Shown piece after piece: positions 48,690-57,575 of a DNA stretch of 64,000 nucleotides. The DNA comes from Roseibium aquae (GTDB lineage: Bacteria; Pseudomonadota; Alphaproteobacteria; Rhizobiales; Stappiaceae). Every line of letters starts with the position of its first letter. The first letter of the stretch is position 1. Below the pieces are notes generated by a model. The model ran no database searches. It had not been told where the DNA came from and saw nothing but the letters and a program-made list of their open reading frames with translations. A program made the position numbers and the translations under genes. The stretch lies in contig NZ_VXDC01000004.1 in NCBI RefSeq assembly GCF_008711285.1, positions 186,001 through 250,000 of the forward strand. The letters run 5' to 3'.

Positions 48690-48718
48690 AAAAAAAATGG
48701 CGGGCAAGAGCCCGCCAT
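48690..48718 (-). terminator. terminator of the YcaO gene
   Basis: On the minus strand ATGGCGGGC, loop TCTT, GCCCGCCAT, then a run of seven further T. It lies about 125 bp past the YcaO stop and just beyond the convergent CAP-domain gene. Confidence 0.9.
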
Positions 48719-48843: not shown

Positions 48844-50259
48844 TCAAAATGGAAACGGACGGGCCTCATAGGCGGATTCGAACGCGGAACGGCGCACCGG
48901 ATCTTCATAGACGGCGCCGGGATAAAGACGCTTCTTTCCGAAGCGCGCCTCCCATGAACAAAGCTGAGGTGAGACAACCTTCGCACAGGGCACTTTGATC
49001 TCGGGATGGGTCGCATCCAGAACCCAAAGGTCGATGCCAGCATCCAGGCAAGTCTCCATGAGGGTTTCGAACGAAAAGACCTGTTCCACCGAGGCCGGGC
49101 AAGCCATCGGGACGTGATCAAGACCAAGATCTTCGACAATCGATGTGGTCCGGCCGTAGGCCACCGCCCGCGAAACGCGGGGAGTGTTCCCCCGCGCGCT
49201 ATCCCGTTGGGCCGCCCAGGTGGTCCATGCCTGGGCCTTTTCCGATTGCAGCATTTCACAGACTGCCGATCGCAAGGCCAGCGCAAAGCTCGGCGCGGCA
49301 CAAACGCCGAGCGCAGCCATGTAACCGCCGCTGTCGCAAGAGAGGGACACGGCAACCTGCGCCGAAAGATCTGTCTCAAGGCGGTAGAACCGGGTCTGAC
49401 GGGGCCGGGCTTTCAGGAAATCCGCTAAATAACTGCCCAAATATTTGGCAGAAATACCGGAATCAACCCCACTTATCCACAAGCGGTTGTGCCAGGCGCG
49501 CGCCATGGCATCGCGCTCCACCAGTTCCCATGTGGCACGCCGGACCGCTTCTTCAAAGGTGGTATAGACAGCTGCCCCGAGAGTGGAGCCGAAATCCGGC
49601 AGACCAGGTTCCCCGAGCGGATTTAGCAGCACACCAAATGCGGGCAATTGCGCTGTCCGCCCGGTCGCCAAATGGCGGACGGTGACCCGCGCTTCGGACA
49701 AGCCGTTCCAATCGATCTTGCCATCGGGCAATCGGAAGCCGGCAAAATGCGCGTTTCCCGCCCTGTGTTCCTGGGTTGGACTGAAGCCGAAAAATGGGCC
49801 GGCGGCCAGATCCTCAAGGTCGGAGCGGATCGGGAAGATCCGCGGGTCCCGGTTTTGCGGGAGACGGTACAAGCTGAGCCGTTCCGCCATTTCGCCGAGG
49901 CACGAGACCGCCGCCGAAACCTTGTCGCGCCCTTGCCCCCCCGCTGGCAACCACGCGGTTTCCATTCCCTTGGAATCGGCATTGCTGTGCGGTGCCTCGA
50001 TCAACCCGGTACAAAGATGAACCGGCTCATCATCACCCGAGATCCGTTTCAACCTCGGCCGGCGGGAGGCCAGAAGCGGAGCAAACAATGTCAAGGTCTC
50101 ATTCGAAAGCGTGAGCGCGGGCAGATAATTCTCGCCAGTCCGCCGCAGCAGGCCCACATCCAGAAGGCCGCTCAGGCACACCTGAGCTTCCGGCACTTCC
50201 CTTTGGGAAGGCACATCGAACATCTTGAAATAACCATATTGGTCCAATGCAATCGTCAT
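48844..50259 (-). CDS. YcaO-domain peptide-modifying enzyme
   Basis: 471 residues. YcaO enzymes use ATP to activate peptide backbone amides, making azolines, thioamides or amidines. The three ATP/Mg motifs are clear: SCLGEMAER (119-127; Glu123, Glu126), ATWELVERDA (Glu245, Glu248) and AVCEMLQSE (Glu335, Gln338). It ends RPFPF, like the Pro-rich tails of TOMM cyclodehydratase D subunits. Residues ~1-65 are a non-YcaO extension (GLLDVGLLRRTGENYLPALTLS) that may bind a leader peptide; this is inference. Divergent, 190 bp away, are two tandem peptides with nitrile-hydratase-like leaders. No E1-like partner or flavin dehydrogenase is nearby. ATG 50259 is supported by GGAAG upstream. Confidence 0.88.
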   Translation of the reverse strand: MTIALDQYGYFKMFDVPSQREVPEAQVCLSGLLDVGLLRRTGENYLPALTLSNETLTLFAPLLASRRPRLKRISGDDEPVHLCTGLIEAPHSNADSKGMETAWLPAGGQGRDKVSAAVSCLGEMAERLSLYRLPQNRDPRIFPIRSDLEDLAAGPFFGFSPTQEHRAGNAHFAGFRLPDGKIDWNGLSEARVTVRHLATGRTAQLPAFGVLLNPLGEPGLPDFGSTLGAAVYTTFEEAVRRATWELVERDAMARAWHNRLWISGVDSGISAKYLGSYLADFLKARPRQTRFYRLETDLSAQVAVSLSCDSGGYMAALGVCAAPSFALALRSAVCEMLQSEKAQAWTTWAAQRDSARGNTPRVSRAVAYGRTTSIVEDLGLDHVPMACPASVEQVFSFETLMETCLDAGIDLWVLDATHPEIKVPCAKVVSPQLCSWEARFGKKRLYPGAVYEDPVRRSAFESAYEARPFPF

Positions 50260-50448
50260 AGATATTACTTCCCAGACAGAAATAGCAACCTGTAATTTTA
50301 ACAATGACGAAACATACAAATACCCTTGATCATCGCCGCCAGTCAAAACATTCTCACCCTGCGTGGCAGGTAATAGACAAATTGATGCAGTAAATCAGCG
50401 TTTTTACTTGCCGCACCTCACAGATCGAAATCAACACGGAGAGCGGCC
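50260..50448. promoter_or_regulatory. divergent promoter region of the YcaO/peptide locus
   Basis: About 190 bp, clearly more AT-rich than the neighbouring coding DNA. It must drive the YcaO gene to the left and the two peptide genes to the right. No SARP-type direct repeat can be assigned with confidence. Confidence 0.45.
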
Positions 50449-50745
50449 ATGACAAGTATCCAAGACACCGAAACCATGTATCAGGTGGCGGAGAAGTTCG
50501 CGTCCATCGTCGAAAATGACCAGATGCGCGCTCAATTCGTCGGGAACCCGGCCGGGACACTCCCCGAGGCGGACCTTCCCAAAGACCTGACTGTCTATGC
50601 CGACACGGCGGACATGGTTCACCTGGTCGTGCCGGCGGCAGTCGACATGGACCGCATCGCCGCCCGGGACGAATCCTATTTCGAAGAACTAGGCAGAGCT
50701 GCCTTGGGCTTTTGTGCGTACCGCGATCTGCCAATCCCCGAGTGA
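50449..50745 (+). CDS. RiPP precursor-like peptide 1 (NHLP-type leader)
   Basis: 98 residues. The first ~60 resemble the nitrile hydratase-like leader peptide of TOMM/proteusin precursors: a helix (YQVAEKFASIVENDQMRAQFVGNPAGTL), then LPKDLTVYADTADMVHLVVP. The tail VDMDRIAARDESYFEELGRAALGFCAYRDLPIPE would be the core. It has one Cys and one Ser only. Residues 61-87 align with residues 69-95 of the next peptide (P, VD, I, RD, Y, A, G in register). Directly divergent from a YcaO gene. No Gly-Gly cleavage site is obvious. Confidence 0.72.
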   Translation: MTSIQDTETMYQVAEKFASIVENDQMRAQFVGNPAGTLPEADLPKDLTVYADTADMVHLVVPAAVDMDRIAARDESYFEELGRAALGFCAYRDLPIPE

Positions 50746-50753
50746 TCGATCAC

Positions 50754-50776
50754 GGCCGCCGGCATCGCCGGCGGCC
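50754..50776 (+). other. perfect hairpin between the two precursor genes
   Basis: GGCCGCCGGC / GCCGGCGGCC with a 3-base ATC loop, 10-bp stem, 8 bp after the first stop and about 20 bp before the next start. No T-run follows directly, so it may be an mRNA processing or stabilising element that sets the ratio of the two peptides. Confidence 0.75.
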
Positions 50777-50796
50777 CGACCAGTTTTGGAGGCCCC

Positions 50797-51093
50797 ATGG
50801 CCCGGTTCCCGTACTACCAAAACAACGTCAAGGACCTCGGACGGCTGCTCGCTCAAGCCTCAGTTGACCCGGAGTTTTATTCCATGCTCCACGCCGATCC
50901 GCAGGCGGCTCTTGCCGAAATCGGTTTGCCTGAAGAGACCGTGGCACTGATCAGCTTCAAAATCGTGAAAGCAGAGACGGACGCCCGTTCGATCACCCTC
51001 CCCTACAGGGTCGACAAAACGAAAATCAGGGGACGTGACCTCGCCTATCTTTCAGACATTTCCAAAGCCTTATCGGGCCACGGACCCAACTGA
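50797..51093 (+). CDS. RiPP precursor-like peptide 2 (NHLP-type leader)
   Basis: 98 residues, same length as the first peptide. The leader part is a textbook NHLP pattern: VDPEFYSMLHADPQAALAEIGLPEETV, then ISFKIVKAETDARSITLP. The tail VDKTKIRGRDLAYLSDISKALSGHGPN contains no Cys and few Ser/Thr, so classic thiazole formation is impossible and little is available for oxazoles. GGAGG lies just upstream of the ATG. Paired ~100-residue TOMM precursors next to YcaO are known from Burkholderia (BMA_0021/BMA_0022 family, from memory), which these may match. Confidence 0.78.
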   Translation: MARFPYYQNNVKDLGRLLAQASVDPEFYSMLHADPQAALAEIGLPEETVALISFKIVKAETDARSITLPYRVDKTKIRGRDLAYLSDISKALSGHGPN

Positions 51094-51195
51094 GCCTGTC
51101 AGCTGGGCACAGTCGGCAAATGGGCAGGTACCGCAAAGCCAATTCCCTCGTCGAATGCAGGGCCTCGACCATGCGCCTTGTGAACCCGCGTTGCC

Positions 51196-53187
51196 CTAGC
51201 CGCCGCGCACGACCGCCTCACGCACGCACAAGGCGCCCTGTTTGAAGCGCTCACGGACAAGCGGATCTTGAAAAAAGCAGATCCGTTCATCCCAGGGGTG
51301 ATGAGGTTGAAGAAAAAACTCTTTCTTCTTGAACAAGTCCTTGTTCCGCTTGCGGTACAAGTCGAGCACAGACCCGATTTGATCCCCACGGTCCAGCGCG
51401 AAAAGACAGGCGACCCGGATAACAACGCCGATCAGTGTGCTGTTTGGCGCGCGCTCGATGTAGTAAAGAGCGGTCTCGTACTCACCATTTGCAAAATATA
51501 TATTCGCAAGATACTCGTAAAAGACGCGGGGCAAACTGGATTTGATGGTTTGCGCCTTATCCGCGTAATATCTTCCCCCTTCCACATCGCCGGCAATGGA
51601 AAGACCTTCCGCGACCGACATCAGGTTCTCGGGCTCAAGAGAGCTCAAACGCCCAGCCTCTTCGAATGCCCTGCGCGCTTCCGGGTAGTGACCGGATTGC
51701 AAAAGAGCCCAGCCCATCATCCGCTGATTCATGGACTGCCAAGGGTCAAGACCAACGGCCTTTTCGGTGAGGGCAAGCACGGAAGCGACATCGACCATCT
51801 CGGCGCCCGACTTCGAAGGAAAATGCAGCCGATGTTTCATGTGGGATGAGGCCCTGGCCGCGTAAATGGGCGAAAAACTGGAGAACCGGGTTTCCAGATC
51901 ATCCAGCATCCTGGATGCCCGTTCCTCCGATTCGGGTGTGAAATCCCACATGAGCCGGGAGACTTCACACCAGGTTGAAAAAGCGCTGGGCTTTGCCAGA
52001 CTGCGGGCCGGGTCTTGAAGATGCGCCTGAATACGCCGGATGGCCTGTGCGGCGGAAACACGCACCTCCCCAGGCTTGGCCAGCATCTCATCCTCGAAAA
52101 TGTCATGGAACAGAATACGGCCGCTGACCCGGTCCTCGAACTGGAAATAGACCCGCCTTTGCTCGTCATCATATCGAACGCGCAACATGTAGGTTCCGGC
52201 CCCCGGATCATCGACCCGGGCAAGGTTGGCGGACCCGGTGTCCAGCTCGACATCCGCCTGAAACAGGTCGACCATGCGCAAAGCCGACAGGCCCGCCAAA
52301 ACTTCATCCCTGAGCGACGTGGCCGACCTGCTGCGTGAATTGCCCAGCCCCAAGGACGCAATCGAGACATGCGGCAGGACCATGGTTTCCGATACGTGCG
52401 CCCCGGTCTTGAACTGCGCCTGATCGGTGACCGGCGTCTTGGAACCGTTCAATTCTGGCAGGTTCTTTGGAATATCCTGCAACAAAGCCCGGGTTTCCGG
52501 TTCGGGTTCGGCATCCAGAAGCATTTTGAGTTCACGGGCACATGTCTTGTACTGTGCCACCGCCAACTCGCGTTGGCCGGTTTGCAGAAAGTGCCGGATG
52601 AGCACCCGGTGGGCCACTTCGGAGGAGGGGTCGATGGTGAGAAGAAACTGCGCACCAGCCTCCCTAAGACCGTCGGACCGCCGTTCCGGGTGATCGATCC
52701 GCCGCATCACATTCGCGGTGATCCAGGAGCACAACCGTTCACGATCAAGACGCAGCCAATCGCCGAAATTCGGATCTAGACTATCGAAATTACCGAGAAA
52801 CTCGCCCCGCCATAGCCGCCGCGCATCCTCAAAGTCGGCTCTGCCGCCACGCAGGACCAATGCTTCAATGGTGTCAATGTCCAGTTCGAAGGCATCAGGA
52901 TCGATCGAGACAAACTGGTTCCGCGCTTCGAAGAACGGCTTGCTGATATGCTTCTCGAGCGTCTTCACCTGCCGCAAGGCTTGCCGGAGGGACTGGGAAG
53001 CCCGTTCACGCGGAGCCTCACTCCAGAACACGTCCGTAAGCTCTTCCCGAGACACGGTATGGCTTGGGCTTCGGAGGAGATAGACCAGAAGCGCCAGAGA
53101 CTTGCGGGTTTTCAATGTCACCAGGCCACCCGGTTGGGCGAAGAGGTTAGGCAGCCCAAGGCATTGAAGATACAATTGTCTTGTCAT
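51196..53187 (-). CDS. SARP/BTAD-family transcriptional regulator with TPR-like C-terminus
   Basis: 663 residues. An N-terminal winged helix (LPNLFAQPGGLVTLKTRKSLALLVYLLRSPSHTVSREELTDVFW, then ASQSLRQALRQVK) is followed by the bacterial transcriptional activator domain (~97-235, with DDARRLWRGEFLGNFDSLDPNFGDWLRLDRERL and ALRIY-like repeats). Residues ~270-380 resemble the FlgO/TolB-N-like sensor seen in such regulators, and 430-640 are tetratricopeptide-type helices. There is no NB-ARC domain. Such regulators often control natural-product genes, so it is the probable activator of the YcaO locus, with which it is convergent to the precursors. Confidence 0.85.
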   Translation of the reverse strand: MTRQLYLQCLGLPNLFAQPGGLVTLKTRKSLALLVYLLRSPSHTVSREELTDVFWSEAPRERASQSLRQALRQVKTLEKHISKPFFEARNQFVSIDPDAFELDIDTIEALVLRGGRADFEDARRLWRGEFLGNFDSLDPNFGDWLRLDRERLCSWITANVMRRIDHPERRSDGLREAGAQFLLTIDPSSEVAHRVLIRHFLQTGQRELAVAQYKTCARELKMLLDAEPEPETRALLQDIPKNLPELNGSKTPVTDQAQFKTGAHVSETMVLPHVSIASLGLGNSRSRSATSLRDEVLAGLSALRMVDLFQADVELDTGSANLARVDDPGAGTYMLRVRYDDEQRRVYFQFEDRVSGRILFHDIFEDEMLAKPGEVRVSAAQAIRRIQAHLQDPARSLAKPSAFSTWCEVSRLMWDFTPESEERASRMLDDLETRFSSFSPIYAARASSHMKHRLHFPSKSGAEMVDVASVLALTEKAVGLDPWQSMNQRMMGWALLQSGHYPEARRAFEEAGRLSSLEPENLMSVAEGLSIAGDVEGGRYYADKAQTIKSSLPRVFYEYLANIYFANGEYETALYYIERAPNSTLIGVVIRVACLFALDRGDQIGSVLDLYRKRNKDLFKKKEFFLQPHHPWDERICFFQDPLVRERFKQGALCVREAVVRGG

Positions 53188-53390
53188 ACAGATTGCGACC
53201 CAGCTTTACTTGGATGGCCGGGCCCCGCGAAGGGTCTGATCCGATCCTGACCGGCATGTTGGTTGCACGGTTGCCCTAGAAAACCTGCTATAAGAGTATC
53301 ACGGTAATTTCACGGCTTATAGGGACTGTTTCTCCAACAAGAAGCCAAACAGCCGTTTGAGAGTAATCTGTAACACGGTGGGACCCAATA

Positions 53391-53636
53391 ATGACCAGTA
53401 CACGCGAAAAGCACACGCTCCCCTCTCTTGAGGCGGAAGATGCACAAGACAGCTTGAAGCGCATGATCTATTTCACCAAGCGGGAAGCCGAAAAGGATGG
53501 GCGTTCATTTTGCGCCTACTTCCTGGAAATGGCCCTGAACGCGCTCGAGGAAGACTCCGAAGAAATCAACGAGGCTGTGCGGTCCAAAATTGTCCGCCTG
53601 CCAATCGCTCCACAAGACAACGCCAGAAGCGCCTGA
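53391..53636 (+). CDS. small acidic protein of unknown function
   Basis: 81 residues, not recognised. The centre is an amphipathic helix (LKRMIYFTKREAEKDGRSFCAYFLEMALNALEEDSEEI) with single Cys. Divergent from the SARP regulator across a 200-bp promoter region, so it may be part of the locus. Good codon use for this genome and a plausible GGTGGGA site upstream support a real gene. It is not leader-like and lacks a signal peptide. Confidence 0.6.
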   Translation: MTSTREKHTLPSLEAEDAQDSLKRMIYFTKREAEKDGRSFCAYFLEMALNALEEDSEEINEAVRSKIVRLPIAPQDNARSA

Positions 53637-56748: not shown

Positions 56749-56982
56749 ATGCCTTGATTTGCCCGGGTTTAAAGGCCCGGGCAGGCGCCGTCAAGGGAGA
56801 ACAAAGAGTGAAATTCTGGCATTTACGGACAAAGGATGACACAGGAGTACCGAAATAGTCCCGAAATCCGTTCCTGACATGTTCCAGATCAAGCGCAAAT
56901 CGTGATGCGCATTATTTTGCGCACTCGCTTGACATCGCAGCTACAATGCGTATATATATACGCATAGCGGGGAACGAGACGC

Positions 56983-57165
56983 ATGGAAACCAACAGCCGC
57001 AAGATCATCAGGAAGCTGGAGCAAGACGGCTTCGAACTTGTGAAAATCGCCGGCTCTCACCACAAATTCAAAAAGGGCAACCTGACCGTTACCGTGCCTC
57101 ACCCAAAAAAGGATCTGCCGCTCGGCACCGTGCGGAGCATCTACAAACAAGCCGGATGGCTCTAA
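56983..57165 (+). CDS. hicA: HicA-type mRNA interferase toxin
   Basis: 60-residue toxin with a double-stranded RNA-binding-like fold that cleaves mRNA independently of ribosomes. The family core is KIIRKLEQDGFELVKIAGSHHKFKKGNLTVTVPHP with the catalytic His in GSHHKF, then LPLGTVRSIYKQAG. The upstream AT-rich ATATATATAC stretch looks like a promoter. It is 14 bp before hicB, the usual toxin-first order. Confidence 0.94.
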   Translation: METNSRKIIRKLEQDGFELVKIAGSHHKFKKGNLTVTVPHPKKDLPLGTVRSIYKQAGWL

Positions 57166-57179
57166 GCGAGGACAAGACC

Positions 57180-57575
57180 ATGCGTTACTACATCGCCCTT
57201 GTGCATCAGGACGGCCAGAGCGCCTTCGGTGTTCAGTTTCCGGATGTTCCGGGCTGCTTTTCCGCCGCCGATGACATGAACGACCTGATCGCCAATGCGT
57301 CGGAAGCCCTCGCCCTTCATCTGGAAGGCGAGGGCCTGCCCGATGCCCGGCCGCTGGATGCGCTTCGGACCGATCCGGAGATTGCAGAAGAACTTGCGCG
57401 CGGCGCCTTTCTGGTCGCCGTGCCATACATCTCCCTGACAGGACGGACCGTCAAGGCAAACATCACCATGGACGCAGGATTGAAGGAAGCGGCAACCGCC
57501 GTTGCAGACGCACGCGGCCTCACCCTCTCCTCTTACCTCGCCGACCTCGCGCGGCGCGATATTGCAGGCAAGTGA
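57180..57575 (+). CDS. hicB: HicB-type antitoxin
   Basis: 131 residues. The N-terminal HicB fold (YYIALVHQDGQSAFGVQFPDVPGCFSAADDMNDLIANASEALALHLEGEG) neutralises HicA. The C-terminal ribbon-helix-helix (ITMDAGLKEAATAVADARGLTLSSYLADLARRDI) should bind the hicAB promoter for autoregulation. Complete pair, no truncation seen. Confidence 0.93.
   Translation: MRYYIALVHQDGQSAFGVQFPDVPGCFSAADDMNDLIANASEALALHLEGEGLPDARPLDALRTDPEIAEELARGAFLVAVPYISLTGRTVKANITMDAGLKEAATAVADARGLTLSSYLADLARRDIAGK

Follow-up and report, generated by a model that had tools for sequence, protein, structure and literature searches.

Among the described systems closest to the locus studied here, the nitrile-hydratase-like leader peptide (NHLP) precursors of Burkholderia occur in pairs, one member of each pair carrying a C-terminal Cys according to the excerpt of PMC2887384, while MprC receives a thiazoline at one Cys behind its NHLP leader (excerpt of PMC12455567). 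The available part of PMC10885120 describes ATP-driven chemistry exerted by MusD at a peptide end, and that of PMC13063428 an E. coli YcaO that has no linked precursor and acts on the folded protein uL16, also without a RiPP recognition element (RRE; RiPP, ribosomally synthesised and post-translationally modified peptide). Our locus lies at positions 48844..53636 of a 64,000-nucleotide stretch of the Roseibium aquae genome (NZ_VXDC01000004.1, positions 186,001 to 250,000), hereafter called the window. It comprises a YcaO gene on the minus strand, divergent from two genes for peptides of 98 residues each, pepA and pepB, followed by a regulator resembling the Streptomyces antibiotic regulatory proteins (SARP), with a BTAD domain and tetratricopeptide repeats (TPR). 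Some close relatives differ by a joint replacement of pepB and the TPR half of the regulator, and resemble each other more in pepA, YcaO and the DNA-binding/BTAD half. The locus looks more like a circuit for sensing peptides than like a typical antibiotic cluster.

YcaO (48844..50259, minus strand) was identified by PF02624 with an E value of 3.2e-35 and is the single YcaO gene of the 4.4 Mb host genome. Translation probably begins at ATG 50259, which is preceded by GGGAAG and yields 471 residues, and not at TTG 50346. The peptides are encoded on the plus strand (pepA at 50449..50745, pepB at 50797..51093), and the regulator of 663 residues (51196..53187, minus strand), the sole BTAD gene of the host genome, gave a BTAD match above the cut-off (2.7e-13), TPRs and a weak winged helix (Trans_reg_C, 22.9 bits, below the cut-off of 26.2). 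The interval additionally includes x81, a small conserved protein without known family, and the whole locus sits inside a long syntenic block. No E1, SagB, exporter or peptidase gene lies beside the locus. A sequence-only reading of the window had described a minimal YcaO-precursor-regulator locus lacking these partners; its genes were found at the places given, in an order that recurs in relatives, and the locus was confirmed as real and conserved.

By its layout the locus is nearest to the Burkholderia pairs (TIGR03795, BMA_0021/BMA_0022), a likeness already drawn in the sequence-only reading: these are likewise tandem precursors with nitrile-hydratase-like leaders, one of them Cys-terminal (excerpt of PMC2887384). 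A further similarity is that in the one Burkholderia-type locus examined (L149) a kinase/cyclase/ATPase/TPR protein lies beside the precursors. Unlike them, the window locus has a stand-alone YcaO and a BTAD regulator, and the Cys of pepA stands near the end and not at the end. The comparison with this family that the same reading had proposed returned no sequence link: with E values up to 10 accepted, TIGR03795 matched none of the 49 members, as far as the HMMER filters permit, nor anything in the host genome, and profile comparisons against just two sequences of that family gave 4.0% and 0.3%, not significant. The locus also resembles NHLP-YcaO systems to which a regulator for sensing has been added, and its membership in the defined families is putative. 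The excerpt of PMC12455567 describes for MprC/MprE a comparable combination of YcaO and NHLP-like precursor, with the thiazoline at Cys. The daptide YcaO, as presented in the available part of PMC12670281, was considered and is not close to the window system.

The joint replacement is seen in the comparison of loci L055 and L069, which are 99% identical in CAP, 100% in x81, 87% in YcaO and 90% in pepA, and 45% in pepB. Their regulators share 99, 92 and 86% of residues over positions 1-80, 81-160 and 161-240, and 40-64% beyond, while DNA identity is 87-95% through pepA, 48-67% across pepB and the TPR part, and 83-100% afterwards. A like pattern was shown by L066 against L068/L071 (regulator 90, 85 and 75-76%, then 39-64%). 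Since the Pfam BTAD match ends at residue 239, the exchanged part of the regulator is the TPR part (residues 241-663, 51199..52467 on the minus strand of the window, boundary from alignment to relatives). When close pairs were defined by CAP and x81 both at least 90% identical (50 pairs, not independent of each other), the TPR half lay at least 15 points under the BTAD half in 9, all with pepB below 70%, and the reverse occurred in none. The 9 pairs form about four groups: L055/L069; L066,L171/L068,L071; L051/L165 with crosses to L069; and L045/L164.

Correlations corrected for flank divergence were then calculated over 47 loci and the window, using a quadratic correction and a permutation test with a p floor of 0.003. 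The pepB distances followed the TPR half, with an r of 0.38 and the lowest attainable p, and did not follow the BTAD half (0.01, p 0.43). The values for the other pairs were 0.11 (pepA-pepB), 0.25 (pepA-TPR half), 0.37 (pepB-YcaO) and 0.32 (YcaO-BTAD half), and controls with pde returned 0.17 for pepB and -0.01 for the TPR half. An earlier set of 45 loci, with a linear correction and different flanks, had given a partial r of 0.44 for pepA-YcaO, which fell to 0.14 (p 0.056) over the 47 loci and the window; therefore, no weight is put on this correlation. The regulator match of L057 is partial and the gene may be interrupted.

The agr and comQXP systems are peptide pheromone systems organised in pherotypes, where the peptide and the sensor part change together and the output part is constant, as we propose here. 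In our loci, peptide and sensor part vary jointly while the output part remains constant, with the caveat that the two are linked. Unlike agr and comQXP, the window locus has a cytoplasmic BTAD/TPR regulator and a YcaO, with no exporter, and signalling is putative. Selection for matched alleles of a peptide and its sensor would produce such a joint replacement, and the exchange points to pepB as the likely specificity peptide of the TPR half.

The named relatives carrying the locus are Roseibium/Labrenzia and Pannonibacter. Among 87 genomes of the family Stappiaceae pepB is present in 48, namely 42 of the 45 belonging to the genus and 6 of the 42 others. YcaO of the locus type occurs in 35 of 37 genus genomes and both genomes without it also lack pepB, presence being concordant in all 37 (35 with both genes, 2 with neither). 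In 38 of 40 fetched loci the order YcaO-pepA-pepB-regulator-x81 is flanked on one side by CAP with its upstream block (GT2, PAP2, GT), metC and the phosphodiesterase being unmatched in a few, and on the other, where the stretch reaches so far, by the downstream block. The remaining two are an orphan peptide pair (L077) and a non-syntenic locus from another family (L081), whose peptide ends GCR. Nine further syntenic loci were found, two on short contigs flanked solely by CAP and the phosphodiesterase. As the order recurs in these 38 and 9 loci, it is not due to chance. The cassette occupies one syntenic site in all 47 relatives fetched, the pepA/pepB pair being present in every one of them, so the locus is passed on as part of the chromosome. 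The sequence-only reading would have yielded to a non-conserved order or to a housekeeping family for the peptides; the order is kept, and family-model searches returned no such family above the cut-off for either peptide.

YcaO, pepA and pepB are jointly missing at the syntenic site in all three genus genomes without pepB: G029 and G039 also lack the regulator and keep x81, whereas G057 keeps both regulator and x81. Absence of YcaO was checked genome-wide for G029 and G039, while G057 was judged at the syntenic site. The working unit therefore consists of YcaO and the two peptides. The x81 gene (53391..53636, plus strand), adjoining the regulator, was rejected as part of the cassette, in which its membership is doubtful, because it persists in all three genomes; in G001, G004 and G013, from other genera, neither cassette nor x81 is at the site. 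Mean pairwise distances over 45 loci were 0.57 for YcaO, 0.54 for pepB, 0.48 for the regulator, 0.40 for pepA, 0.33 for x81 and 0.15-0.32 for the flanks. A pepA search in 299 genomes drawn from the phylum matched the window genome only, and a single YcaO query against genome contigs gave no match, whereas a query with the pepA alignment did. One match, L115 (Jiella), looks false, as it overlaps an open reading frame of 990 residues on the opposite strand. Two orphan pepA-pepB pairs (L077:9348-10117 and L172:3758-4464) have no YcaO within the fetched stretch and may be modified in trans.

The two peptides are paralogues (hhalign 98.8%, E 5.7e-17), and their leaders are weakly of the nitrile hydratase type, in agreement with the paired NHLP-like peptides of the sequence-only reading. 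Profile matches of pepB included nitrile hydratase alpha (5.8e-5) and the NHLP structure 8tb1 (0.019). With the clan leader model TIGR03793 at E up to 10, 14 of 25 pepA members (best 2.6e-5, below the cut-off) and 21 of 24 pepB members (best 2.8e-8) were matched; window pepB gave below-cut-off matches to NHLP/nitrile-hydratase models and window pepA none. The suggested check against NHLP and TOMM (thiazole/oxazole-modified microcin) models gave weak matches in relatives, with window members far below the cut-off. Alignments were reduced for redundancy to 25 of 41 pepA, 24 of 40 pepB and 29 of about 39 YcaO sequences. A ELSDEQLDAVAGG-type cleavage motif was not seen in the alignments of the 41 pepA and 40 pepB sequences, and Foldseek with the predicted pepA model returned nothing at E <= 0.001.

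The C-terminal half of pepA is conserved, with A51, D52, D55, H58, P62, D74, Y77, G82 and C89 invariant among the 25 aligned sequences. The Cys is invariant in 41 of 41 sequences and the sole one in 39; it stands 7 residues from the end in 37 of 41 and 9 in the window sequence, where its codon lies at 50713..50715 (plus strand). The claim that these C-termini lack residues for azoline formation is not supported. In contrast, pepB changes faster, has no conserved Cys and ends in Asn in 30 of 40 sequences. Pooled pN/pS over 13 pairs was 0.24 and 0.12 for the N- and C-terminal halves of pepA, and 0.21 and 0.31 for those of pepB; omega, where computable, was 0.04-0.24 for pepA, 0.05-0.18 for pepB and 0.11-0.28 for YcaO, with some values not computable and the short fragments of L053 YcaO and L057 regulator omitted. 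The two peptides therefore evolve differently, which alters the idea of a simple pair acting together. Taken together, the sequence-only reading is supported in part: for the minimal locus with paired NHLP-like peptides, and not for its azoline-incompatible core.

In another genus, all 7 loci analysed (L134-L140) combine YcaO and regulator with one peptide, whose first residues, MAR, resemble pepB and whose end, LGC-x-[RK]P, resembles pepA. We infer from such single precursors that pepA and pepB may have arisen when one precursor gene was duplicated and the copies then divided its tasks. In at least 4 of these 7 loci the regulator has an x81-like protein as its neighbour.

The nearest profiles to YcaO were TruD (1.7e-37) and LynD (2.6e-37), with MusD (8.7e-26) and the archaeal MJ1094 (4.1e-8) further away; among structures, MusD 7u58 was one of the nearest (2.8e-18), and TIGR03604 scored 73 bits, under its cut-off of 219. 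Residues E123, E126, E245, E248, R249, D250, E335, Q338 and E340 of the acidic ATP motifs are invariant across the 29 aligned sequences, and in the PFPF tail F469 and P470 hardly vary. The protein has the ATP motifs and the proline-rich end expected of a TOMM YcaO. With TruD and LynD it has in common the YcaO domain fold and the C-terminal end, whereas the LynD front part to about 280, which bears the RRE and includes an E1-like part, is absent. Because residues 1-70, where the sequence-only reading had proposed to look for an RRE, align to LynD from 281 onward and away from its front RRE, no RRE was seen in YcaO. An E1 partner is not fused to YcaO, and the search for an E1 or docking partner, which used the model TIGR03882, gave weak chance-like matches and none above the cut-off in 8 genomes; likewise, TIGR03605 for the SagB/FMN dehydrogenase was above the cut-off in 0 of 8.

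On this basis, YcaO would use ATP to activate the amide preceding Cys89 of the folded NHLP-like pepA, and closure to a thiazoline (-18 Da) would occur without a separate E1/RRE protein. Both the site and the type of change are likely, since pepA has one Cys that never varies, YcaO is of the azoline type and the genes are absent jointly. Once modified, pepA could carry pepB or serve as its scaffold, or could itself be the modified output. The TPR half of the adjacent regulator would recognise pepB or its product, and the DNA-binding half would keep the same target, probably controlling the shared YcaO/pepA promoter region. With oxidase, peptidase and exporter genes all missing from the neighbourhood, the product may have its effect within the cell, or general enzymes may cut and export it. 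A core-chromosomal peptide circuit made from RiPP parts, with modification and recognition both included, is our best explanation as a whole, held with somewhat less than even confidence. The wider proposal is more tentative: in it YcaO marks the pepA Cys, the variable pepB is a signal read by the BTAD regulator through an exchangeable TPR sensor, and the YcaO-BTAD pairing is general in the order with changing precursors.

Several observations weigh against such a circuit. About 100 nt separate the 3' end of pepB from that of the regulator, so a single recombination tract might look alike; pepB is below 70% also in 27 of the other 41 close pairs; L047/L053 is less sharp, with low identity spanning the whole regulator; YcaO is fast-changing too; and the MprC system, in the excerpt of PMC12455567, has an RRE domain and the oxidase MprD, whereas the window locus has one Cys and no oxidase. 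The replacement could thus reflect no more than homologous recombination of linked genes where the sequence changes fast; the regulator would then be a usual activator of its cluster, and pepA and pepB would form a RiPP of two peptides that is released. We regard this as unlikely but as deserving serious weight. Breakpoints recur near residue 240, where BTAD ends, in L055/L069 and in L066,L171/L068,L071, and the halves of L051/L165 and L045/L164 agree with this boundary; moreover, pepA, as close to pepB on the other side, does not track it, which speaks for allele matching, and exporter, peptidase and oxidase are all unlinked, contrary to release.

The circuit has also to be set against other roles of YcaO. 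A MusD-like enzyme might cut the backbone near Cys89 and free a short C-terminal peptide sensed by the TPR half; TPR sensors of short peptides exist (RRNPP), pepA has a short conserved tail after its Cys, and MusD is structurally among the closest proteins. According to the available part of PMC10885120, MusD removes a C-terminal sequence by ATP-driven hydrolysis; it shares the YcaO fold but is longer and belongs to a cyanobactin pathway. Such cleavage is improbable, as MusD is further in sequence than TruD/LynD and the TPR half co-varies with pepB more than with pepA. Similarly little credence is given to a thioamide or amidine in place of the thiazoline: although the E. coli enzyme, which has no RRE, thioamidates uL16 in its folded state (excerpt of PMC13063428), a TfuA gene is found somewhere in 4 of 8 cassette genomes and is missing from the window genome and from 3 of the 7 others. 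The thioamide proposed in the sequence-only reading is weakened by this absence and by the proximity of YcaO to azoline formers. The same E. coli precedent and the orphan peptide pairs would suit a YcaO that modifies another cell protein, with pepA and pepB not its substrates, but the joint absence in 3 of 3 genomes and joint presence in 35 of 35 leave this a small probability. Finally, the missing partner genes might indicate a dead remnant of a full TOMM cluster, which purifying selection (omega 0.04-0.28 over pepA, pepB and YcaO, where computable) makes very improbable.

Should the TPR half indeed read pepB, a RiPP-type locus would serve kin sensing with natural allele pairs at hand for swaps; should YcaO modify pepA unaided, an enzyme of the azoline type would accept a folded NHLP-like precursor with neither RRE nor E1 partner, which bears on how such enzymes recognise their substrates. 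The single pepA Cys offers a clean test site, and the recurrent YcaO-BTAD pairing a handle for genome mining. Among the matches listed from the open-licence literature, no description was found of the locus, of YcaO with BTAD/SARP regulators in Alphaproteobacteria, or of YcaO with haem peroxidase.

The pairing was followed across the order in hand-picked samples. A regulator-like match was present in the fetched stretch at 28 of 40 other YcaO loci, taken from the middle and lower rows of the order-wide match list with known loci omitted; the weak matches had 21-25% identity, and checks were by Pfam in one case and by the BTAD search. In 16 genomes chosen mostly from loci with a regulator match, which biases the figure of 15 of 16 upward, 15 of 21 BTAD matches (at least 30 bits) lay within 10 kb of YcaO and 15 of 24 listed YcaO genes had a BTAD gene within 10 kb. 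In these samples BTAD regulators often adjoin YcaO, above chance for 1-4 copies per genome. A second YcaO-BTAD type (L142, L143, L144, L220, L223, L226, L230, L233, L234, L240, L241 and L242) consists of YcaO, a BTAD/TPR regulator and a small protein ending R-[IVL]-x-D-Y-x-x-x-C-x, with the penultimate Cys in 12 of 12, most of these loci also having a gene that resembles, or is related to, animal haem peroxidase (none by Pfam in L143). Profile comparison of pepA with these small proteins gave 0.2%. A classic NHLP-type precursor, with a ELSEEELDQVSGG stretch and a Cys/Ser/Thr-rich end, occurs near YcaO at L141:9801-10211.

As for regulatory elements, an RNA hairpin lies in the pepA-pepB gap (50754..50776, plus strand). 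The gap hairpins beat shuffled sequences with z < -1 in 37 of 40 gaps and z < -2 in 34 (mean -3.6); their sequences differ among loci, and L058, L060 and L061 are the exceptions. A dyad AGTAAA-N8-TTTACT upstream of pepA (50389..50408) is a candidate operator, its spacing unlike that of relatives; AGTAAA..TTTACT dyads occur in 13 of 41 regions against a shuffle mean of 0.07, 12 of the 13 being from related species. A scan for sigma-70 promoters found 1 against 2.0 expected. A terminator-like hairpin after YcaO (48697..48718, minus strand) matches the consensus, with 3 such hairpins in the region against 7.5 expected in shuffles. Elsewhere in the window, small open reading frames at 56946-57575 look like a putative HicA/HicB pair.

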